A stretch of 46,635 nucleotides of DNA, from assembly GCA_022865905.1 (NCBI GenBank), contig JALHUM010000119.1, positions 1 to 46,635 of the forward strand, read 5' to 3'. Of the stretch, positions 1,527 through 4,637 are shown one piece after another. The DNA is from Anaerolineales bacterium. Lineage in GTDB: Bacteria > Chloroflexota > Anaerolineae > Anaerolineales > Villigracilaceae. Numbering within the stretch: position 1 is the stretch's first letter; every line of letters begins with the position of its first letter. The position numbers were made by a program, and so were the translations under genes. Under the pieces are notes generated by a model. That model had not been told where the DNA came from and made no database searches. It saw only the letters and a list, made by a program, of their open reading frames with translations.

Positions 1527-1991
1527 ATGTCTAAAGTTGCTATTAACACTCCCGCTCCCGATTTCACTCTGCCTGATTACACCGGCAAAACAGTGTGCCT
1601 TTCGGATTTTCGCGGTAAGACCCATGTTCTGCTGGTCTTCAATCGTGGCTTTATGTGACCGTTCTGTCGGGCGCACATGGCGCAGTTGCGCCAGGACTTT
1701 GCAGAATTCGAGCAGCGACAGACTACGATCCTGGTCGTCGGCCCGGAAAACGCTGCCGCCTTCGTCAGATACTGGCAGGAAAACGGACTGCCATTCGTCG
1801 GCTTACCCGACCCAACACACAGTGTGCTGAAATTGTACGGTCAGGAAGTCAACCTGTTCAAACTGGGACGCATGCCCGCCCAGGTTGTGGTGGACAAGAA
1901 AGGCATGGCGCGCTTTGTTCACTATGGGGATTCGATGAGCGATATTCCCGAAAATGGGGAATTGCTGGCACTGCTGGATGCGTTGAATTAA
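1527..1991 (+). CDS. Peroxiredoxin-like thioredoxin-fold protein, probable selenoprotein (TGA at codon 44 read as Sec)
   Basis: The frame opens MSKVAINTPAPDFTLPDY, a typical AhpC/TSA-redoxin start. After 43 codons it meets TGA (1656-1658) and continues in the same frame without loss of family similarity (PFCRAHMAQLRQ...) to TAA at 1991, giving 154 residues if the TGA is decoded. In this family the segment reads GF[WM]CPFCR. The TGA sits exactly at the first, catalytic cysteine, so the motif would be U-P-F-C. A stem TGGCGC/GCGCCA with loop AGTT (1678-1693) lies 25 bases downstream. It has a G in the first two loop positions, as bacterial SECIS hairpins do. The TGA is followed by C, a weak termination context. 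A TAGGAG ribosome site precedes the ATG. Likely role: thiol peroxidase or disulfide reductase in the cytoplasm. The alternative is a Cys-to-stop mutation or a sequencing error, since other genes here are interrupted. Confidence 0.7.
1678..1693 (+). promoter_or_regulatory. Candidate bacterial SECIS hairpin
   Basis: A perfect 6-bp stem TGGCGC/GCGCCA closes a 4-base loop AGTT. It begins 19 bases after the in-frame TGA of the peroxiredoxin-like gene, and its apical loop is 25 bases after it. Position, stem length and the early loop G agree with the loose bacterial SECIS consensus. A competing stem, GGCGCA (1670-1675) with TGCGCC (1687-1692), is also possible. The hairpin also encodes conserved protein, so the pairing could be incidental. 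Confidence 0.5.
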
Positions 1992-2122: not shown

Positions 2123-3264
<1,142 letters not shown>

Positions 3265-3398
3265 GTTGTGCCTCCTGTAATTTTGTCCGATAGTCGGTTT
3301 GTTTGATAGTCTAATTGTCTGTTGGTCTGATGGTCGAATTGACCACTTGTTTAACGGGGCGTCGCTGCTTCCGCGCATCCCTGTATCACCGCGTCTTG
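3265..3398 (-). repeat. ftsA-ftsZ spacer with degenerate GATAGTC-type repeats
   Basis: The 134-base spacer contains gtccgatagtcgg, gatagtctaattgtc and gtctgatggtcgaattgacc. This short repeat style recurs at 22387-22460 upstream of ssnA (tctgatggtc, tagtctaattgtc). On the minus strand it forms the leader of ftsZ and ends in the AGGAGG ribosome site. No clear promoter is seen. Confidence 0.5.
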
Positions 3399-4637
3399 CT
3401 ATGGGAGCAGCCGTTTGAACCAATTTTTTATGGGTTCAATGTTCATACGACTCTCTCCTTTCGGGCGGTGGCGCGGACGATTACGCGCCGAGGGCATTTC
3501 CTCATCCTGCATGGCTGCTGCCCATTGCAGCAGACCCACGCTTGTGGAATATGCGGGTGATGACAGCTTGTCTACCAGGCCGACCAGATTCTCCGGCTTG
3601 GCGGTGCGGACGGGGAGGCCGAGCACCTGGCTGGCCAGTTGTCGGATTCCGGGCAGGTTGCTCGTCCCGCCGGTTAGCACCATGCCAGCTGGCAGCAGAC
3701 CATCGTAGCCGGAGCGTTTGATCTCCTGCAGGGACAGAAGGAAGATCTCTTCGACGCGCGCCTCGATGATGTGGGCCAGCTCCTGGCGGTTGATCTGTGC
3801 AGGTTGTTCTTCTCCGAAGGGGCGGACGGTGAAGTGTTCTTCGCTGCCGACCCCGGATTTCAGCGCATAGCCGTACTCTATTTTGACTTCCTCGGCTTGC
3901 GGGATGGGCAGGCGTAGGCCGTGGGCGATGTCAGCTGTGATGTGATTACCGCCGACGGCCAGCACCATCGTATGCCAGATGTTGCCGCCCACGTAGATGG
4001 CTAGGTCGGTAGTTCCGCCGCCGATGTCGCACACGGCCACACCCATCTGGCGCTCGGAGTCGGTTAATACCACGTCACCGGAGGCCAGCGGGTTGAGCAC
4101 GAACTGGAGCACTTCCACGCCTGCCGCGCCCACGCACTGGCGCAGGTTCTCGGCCGTGGCGGAGGCTGCGGTGATGATGTGCGCCTCTACTTCTAGCCGG
4201 AAGCCGTGCATGCCGATGGGGACATTGATGCCGTCCTGACCGTCCACCACGAAGCCGCGCTGGATGATGTGTATGATCTCGCGGTTGTGGGGGATGGCGA
4301 CAGCGCGGGCGGCGTCCAGGGCGCGTGCGATGTCGTATTCGTCAATCACATCACCCGAAACGCCCACCACGCCGCGGCTGTTTATCGAGGCAACATGCGC
4401 CCCGGCCAAGCTGACCAGCGCGGCGGTGATCTCCACGCCGGAAGTTTGTTCGGCCTTCTCCACCGAACGGACAATGGCCTGCGAGGCCGCCGCCAGGTCT
4501 ACGATCACACCCTTGCGGATGCCTTCCGAAGGCTCGATGCCCACACCCAGGATGCGGATGGCTTCTTCTTCCACCCGCCCGATCAGGGTGCAGACTTTGG
4601 TGGTACCTACGTCAATTCCTACGACAATCTCGTCCAT
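3399..4637 (-). CDS. ftsA: Cell division protein FtsA
   Basis: Actin-like ATPase that tethers FtsZ to the membrane. It starts [20 protein letters not shown], the phosphate-1 region of the actin/Hsp70 fold. It contains the 1C subdomain region typical of FtsA, a phosphate-2 motif [14 protein letters not shown], and the adenosine motif [12 protein letters not shown]. The last residues ([15 protein letters not shown]) form the conserved amphipathic membrane-targeting helix. Length (412 aa) is normal. It lies 27 bases downstream of ftsQ and directly upstream of ftsZ, the usual order. Confidence 0.97.

Follow-up and report, generated by a model that had tools for sequence, protein, structure and literature searches.

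Positions 1527 to 1991 on the plus strand of the window (the whole 46,635-nucleotide stretch of DNA analyzed here) are, as judged from sequence, one intact gene and not a broken one, predicted to encode an AhpC/TSA-Redoxin protein with a selenocysteine at its active site. We consider it very probable that the product is a 154-residue protein of peroxiredoxin/thioredoxin fold in which the UGA at 1656–1658 is decoded as selenocysteine and U44 and C47 carry out redox chemistry. The reading frame runs from ATG at 1527 to TAA at 1989–1991, with an AGGAG resembling a Shine-Dalgarno motif, read directly from the sequence, at 1515–1519 on the same strand, 7 nt ahead of the start codon. The TGA lies in frame and falls, as the initial annotation had proposed, on the first cysteine of a CPFC motif (FM-U-PFC), giving a UxxC active site (U44-P-F-C47) in which Cys47 (1665–1667, plus strand) is the presumed resolving partner of U44. 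Family similarity on both sides of the TGA was likewise borne out: the readthrough product matched AhpC-TSA (PF00578) with 78.1 bits over residues 6 to 127 (gathering score, 26; E = 7 × 10−22) and Redoxin with 66 bits, both across the TGA. Standard ORF rules cut the gene at the UGA, and the two fragments described earlier (1527–1658 and 1677–1991) both exist, the second as a listed ORF and the first within the listed ORF 1416–1658. The gene is flanked by obg and by convergent ftsZ/ftsA; when gene neighborhoods were clustered over ∼80 loci, no operon proved to be conserved, the commonest neighboring family occurring at 15 of them, and gene context thus points to no particular reaction.

Homologs were fetched from two overlapping sources, genomes of the order and a scan of a contig collection. 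Over all fetched loci the codon homologous to position 44 was TGA in 204 rows, TGC (Cys) in 5 and TAA or TAG in none. Among the TGA rows, 178 were <95% identical to each other in nucleotides and 203 had no further in-frame stop. In the order, 133 of 301 genomes held a match at an E value of ≤10−20, in nearly all cases with a single in-frame TGA, and the contig-collection scan returned 80 loci, all 80 with a stop at the U44 position. In a 34-member alignment (A2), position 44 was always Sec or Cys and C47 was invariant. The gene is spread over much of the Anaerolineales and is sporadic in Bacillota, Actinomycetota, Thermodesulfobacteriota and KSB1 records; the TGA form is also present in the cultured relatives Levilinea saccharolytica and Leptolinea sp. 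HRD-7. One genome with two TGA copies has a third, out-of-frame copy containing TAG (L137, G299:C3:1523200-1525000), which resembles a decaying paralogue. It is extremely improbable that the TGA reflects an error of sequencing or assembly, or a pseudogene, in this one genome: the assembly is fragmented and the window has a probable indel (ftsZ, frameshift near 3130), but the TGA recurs at exactly the same codon in the 204 rows, most of them divergent and all but one otherwise open. As for ftsZ itself (window 3070–3260, minus strand), it is split across two frames, with the N-terminal part in ORF 3070–3423 and the remainder in 2123–3097, probably by an assembly indel, since ftsZ is essential.

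Judged from its genome, the organism uses selenocysteine. The assembly holding the window (3.17 Mb, 94.7% complete) was found to contain all four components named in the initial annotation: tRNA-Sec (selC; 67 bits, over the cut-off, with anticodon TCA by ARAGORN), selB (332 bits), selA, which is split over two contigs (503 bits up to the contig end, the C-terminal end lying on the other contig), and selD (350 bits; L258, G000:C148:3987-4922). The selD gene itself has an in-frame TGA, followed by a GC-rich hairpin (GGCGC-AGGTGCT-GCGCC) with a G in the early loop, and fdhA (L260, G000:C315:357-2456) also carries in-frame TGA, one in ARL-U-HSS, again followed by a GC-rich hairpin with an early-loop G. 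A bulk SECIS scan of the other genes of this genome was noisy, and was used for the FdhA and SelD sites only. A candidate TxxU peroxiredoxin (L003, contig C78 of the same genome, minus strand 1932–1492; TGA at 1800–1798 in TPV-U-TSQ) currently reads to 147 amino acids. Across the order, selB was matched in 121 of 128 genomes with the TGA-bearing gene versus 111 of the 168 in which the gene was not matched (Fisher P = 7 × 10−10, a guide only, because the genomes are related). The seven TGA-bearing genomes with no selB match are all metagenome-assembled, at 53 to 90% completeness. The closest Cys forms occur in three genomes, two of them (G016 and G030, 96 to 97% complete) without selB and one (G001) with it.

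The putative bacterial SECIS element is a hairpin at 1678–1693 on the plus strand (TGGCGC-AGTT-GCGCCA), with a 6-bp stem (1678–1683 paired to 1688–1693) and an AGTT loop (1684–1687) that has G as its second position. With its 4-nt loop, 6 bp, 25-nt distance from the UGA and energy of −10.0 kcal/mol, it falls within the published bSECIS model (loop of 3 to 9 nt, stem of 4 to 16 bp, G in the first two loop positions, 16 to 37 nt from the UGA, minimum free energy at most −7.5; PMC13188914). The hairpin 25 bases downstream and the C following the TGA had both been offered as evidence in the initial annotation; both are real, but each is weak support alone, since, for this single sequence, 58 of 200 codon shuffles that keep the protein gave a hairpin of equal energy, and the C is mostly dictated by the codon of the conserved Pro45 (CCN), so the case is made by comparative data. 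Among the 143 rows sharing the hairpin position (the window clade), 98.3% of stem pair cells held standard pairs versus 71.0% (SD, 1.1%) in protein-preserving codon shuffles, and sliding one stem side out of register lowered pairing to 17 to 67%. Silent sites appear frozen: Leu54 was TTG in 143/143 rows (20% elsewhere in these genes), Gln53 CAG in 141/141 (62% elsewhere) and Ala52 GCG in 131/134 (23% elsewhere). As rows were sorted into this clade partly for having codon 53 as CAG or CGG and codon 54 as TTG, the fairer figure for those two codons comes from 93 nonredundant Sec homologs of ≥55% identity left unsorted, in which Leu54 was TTG in 93/93, Gln53 CAG in 91/91 and Ala52 GCG in 87/88; the peptide patterns used for collection left out codons 49 to 55, so the freezing is not a product of the collection step. 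In 12 cells both stem sides had changed and still paired (GCG..CGC to ATG..CAT or to CTG..CAG), as in L115 (ATG-ATG-CAG-TTG-CAT-CAA; Ala52/Arg55 to Met/His) and L141 (TTG-CTG-CAG-TTG-CAG-CAG; Ala52/Arg55 to Leu/Gln), and the 6-bp stem was absent from all five Cys homologs. On this comparative record the predicted element is under both silent-site and covariation constraint and fits bSECIS. All the checks suggested at the outset that were carried out (machinery, homologs and hairpin) favored the initial annotation. Rfam gave no matches over the window and, around the gene, nothing beyond an 8-bit match attributable to chance; no bSECIS family was hit. A divergent UPHC subfamily (clade C; L139, L140 and L142 to L146; ∼36 to 42% identical) retains the ATGGCGCAGTTGCG hairpin of the window gene in an unchanged position.

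These data bear on two other readings of the UGA. It could end one gene at 1656, with reinitiation of a second at ATG 1677 (M51), which is in frame and conserved as Met in 129 of the 143 clade rows. This is highly unlikely: the stop is always TGA, stop-free homologs have only TGC there, many homologs have Leu at the M51 position, silent sites obey the hairpin and the two halves form one fold at high confidence in the AlphaFold2 model described below. Alternatively, the UGA might be read as another residue, either Trp under an altered code or Cys by near-cognate readthrough. We give this very little weight, as Cys is the only replacement in close homologs, tRNA-Sec (TCA), SelA, SelB and SelD are all encoded in the genome, and the hairpin is under selection.

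The hairpin is displaced in a group of 35 rows (clade B), all belonging to the window's own family (f1) and set apart from the other rows by one branch of the tree (SH-aLRT, 95). Here the hairpin at codons 51 to 56 is lost and GCGCGC-AGTTG-GCGCGC stands at codons 48 to 53, 9 nt nearer the UGA, placing the loop 16 nt after it versus 25 nt in the window clade. The frozen GCG-CAG-TTG-GCG motif is displaced with it, and the protein changes from RAHMAQLR to RAQLARM. In clade B, Leu51 was TTG in 26/35 rows (19% elsewhere) and Ala52 GCG in 33/34 (33% elsewhere), and pairing reached 96.2% versus 67.0% in shuffles, although the GC repeats make this register approximate (a slide of +2 gave 94.3%). Because codons 52 and 53 were part of the rule that assigned rows to clade B, independent support comes from the tree, which was built from protein sequences. 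When pairs were counted over all Sec rows together, the losses of pairing were misleading, as the clade B hairpin lies elsewhere, and the clades were then separated. Four genomes (G153, G189, G233 and G296) carry one copy of each hairpin form and one selB match each. It is probable, though less secure than the Sec reading itself, that the SECIS element moved within one subfamily, that the protein sequence followed, and that one SelB would read both forms. If so, clade B would directly exemplify how an RNA element can dictate amino acid sequence and how SECIS spacing is tolerated in nature; the two positions offer a natural experiment on the trade-off between spacing and coding constraint. In many family f1 genomes a copy of the gene (clade B where classified) shares a contig with selB, at a distance of ∼14 to 18 kb (G282:C29, G296:C137, G227:C22, G198:C38, G125:C27, G139:C44, G236:C1, G264:C1 and G103:C1).

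An AlphaFold2 model made with 34 homologs and with C in place of U (pLDDT, 92.3) has a peroxiredoxin fold, and its nearest PDB structures include Bcp1 (3drn) and Mycobacterium tuberculosis AhpE (4x0x), each at TM 0.89. In an alignment with AhpE, C47 matches the peroxidatic Cys, and R40 and U44 occupy the Pro and Thr positions of PxxxTxxC, so the canonical peroxiredoxin PxxxTxxC(U) motif is absent. With Arg in place of that Pro, the protein is not certain to be active as a peroxidase. The comparisons above support the coding of Sec, the SECIS element, the Sec machinery and the predicted fold; the substrate, reductant, catalytic order and enzymatic role we infer. By the standard bacterial route, the predicted mRNA hairpin would be bound by SelB carrying Sec-tRNA-Sec, which would be made by SelA with selenophosphate supplied by SelD. 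U44 stands in place of the Thr of the peroxiredoxin TxxC, with C47 at the peroxidatic Cys site. Most likely, U44 would attack a peroxide or disulfide, C47 would resolve the intermediate by forming a selenenylsulfide within the molecule, and the enzyme would be restored by a reductant of the thioredoxin type. An atypical peroxiredoxin in which Sec is inserted but C47 makes the first nucleophilic attack and U44 resolves is a less likely but serious alternative, given that C47 aligns with the AhpE peroxidatic Cys (U44 with the Thr) and that the closest fold is Bcp/AhpE. Against it, the Pro of PxxxTxxC is Arg40, the exposed nucleophile of a thioredoxin-type CxxC is its first residue, and selection keeps Sec there. 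With C47 invariant and position 44 always Sec or Cys, we favor a UxxC mechanism like that of thioredoxin, passing through an intramolecular selenenylsulfide.

The gene is common across much of the Anaerolineales and is nonetheless split at its UGA by standard ORF rules; a family model built from readthrough sequences would repair annotation in many genomes. The selenoprotein may also help to explain why Anaerolineales retain selB even in genomes lacking an annotated Sec formate dehydrogenase, as in Anaerolinea thermophila (PMC4959059). In the open-license papers found on the Anaerolineae, selenocysteine was mentioned for FdhA/formate dehydrogenase and an elongation factor only, and this subfamily was not found.

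The initial annotation placed the protein in an established class, thioredoxin-fold selenoproteins with UxxC, and this is correct: peroxiredoxin-like selenoproteins with UxxC replacing TxxU have been known since the 2000s (PMC1088965, PMC1794560, PMC2398784 and PMC13188914 [Table 1]). Since such proteins are already described, its wording "new selenoprotein" holds for the selenoprotein but should read as a new subfamily of a known kind. What is new is a mostly-Sec subfamily of this kind, widespread in Chloroflexota and without an NCBIfam model of its own, and a sister clade with its hairpin 9 nt closer to the UGA, four genomes having both forms. The window protein scored under the cut-off of every NCBIfam model that it matched. 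The best of these, the SelL-related redox protein NF040769, matched all 34 members scanned, but the window protein reached 79.1 bits against a cut-off of 120 and covered model positions 2 to 99 of 173 only, which makes it a nonmember by the curated rule. With the peroxiredoxin-like thiol:disulfide oxidoreductase selenoprotein (PF00578, UxxC; representative WP_010940744.1, likened by description and domain) it shares the AhpC/TSA domain, UxxC rather than TxxU, and a bacterial SECIS after the UGA, whereas the window subfamily is mostly from Anaerolineales and almost always has Sec. The selenocysteine peroxiredoxin (TxxU), a form of which is encoded in the same genome (TPVU, contig C78), belongs to the same fold family but has Sec at the Cp position, while the window protein has it three residues earlier. 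Lastly, the AhpE and Bcp (PrxQ) peroxiredoxins (4x0x and 3drn) share the fold but carry PxxxTxxC, where the window protein has RxxxUxxC.
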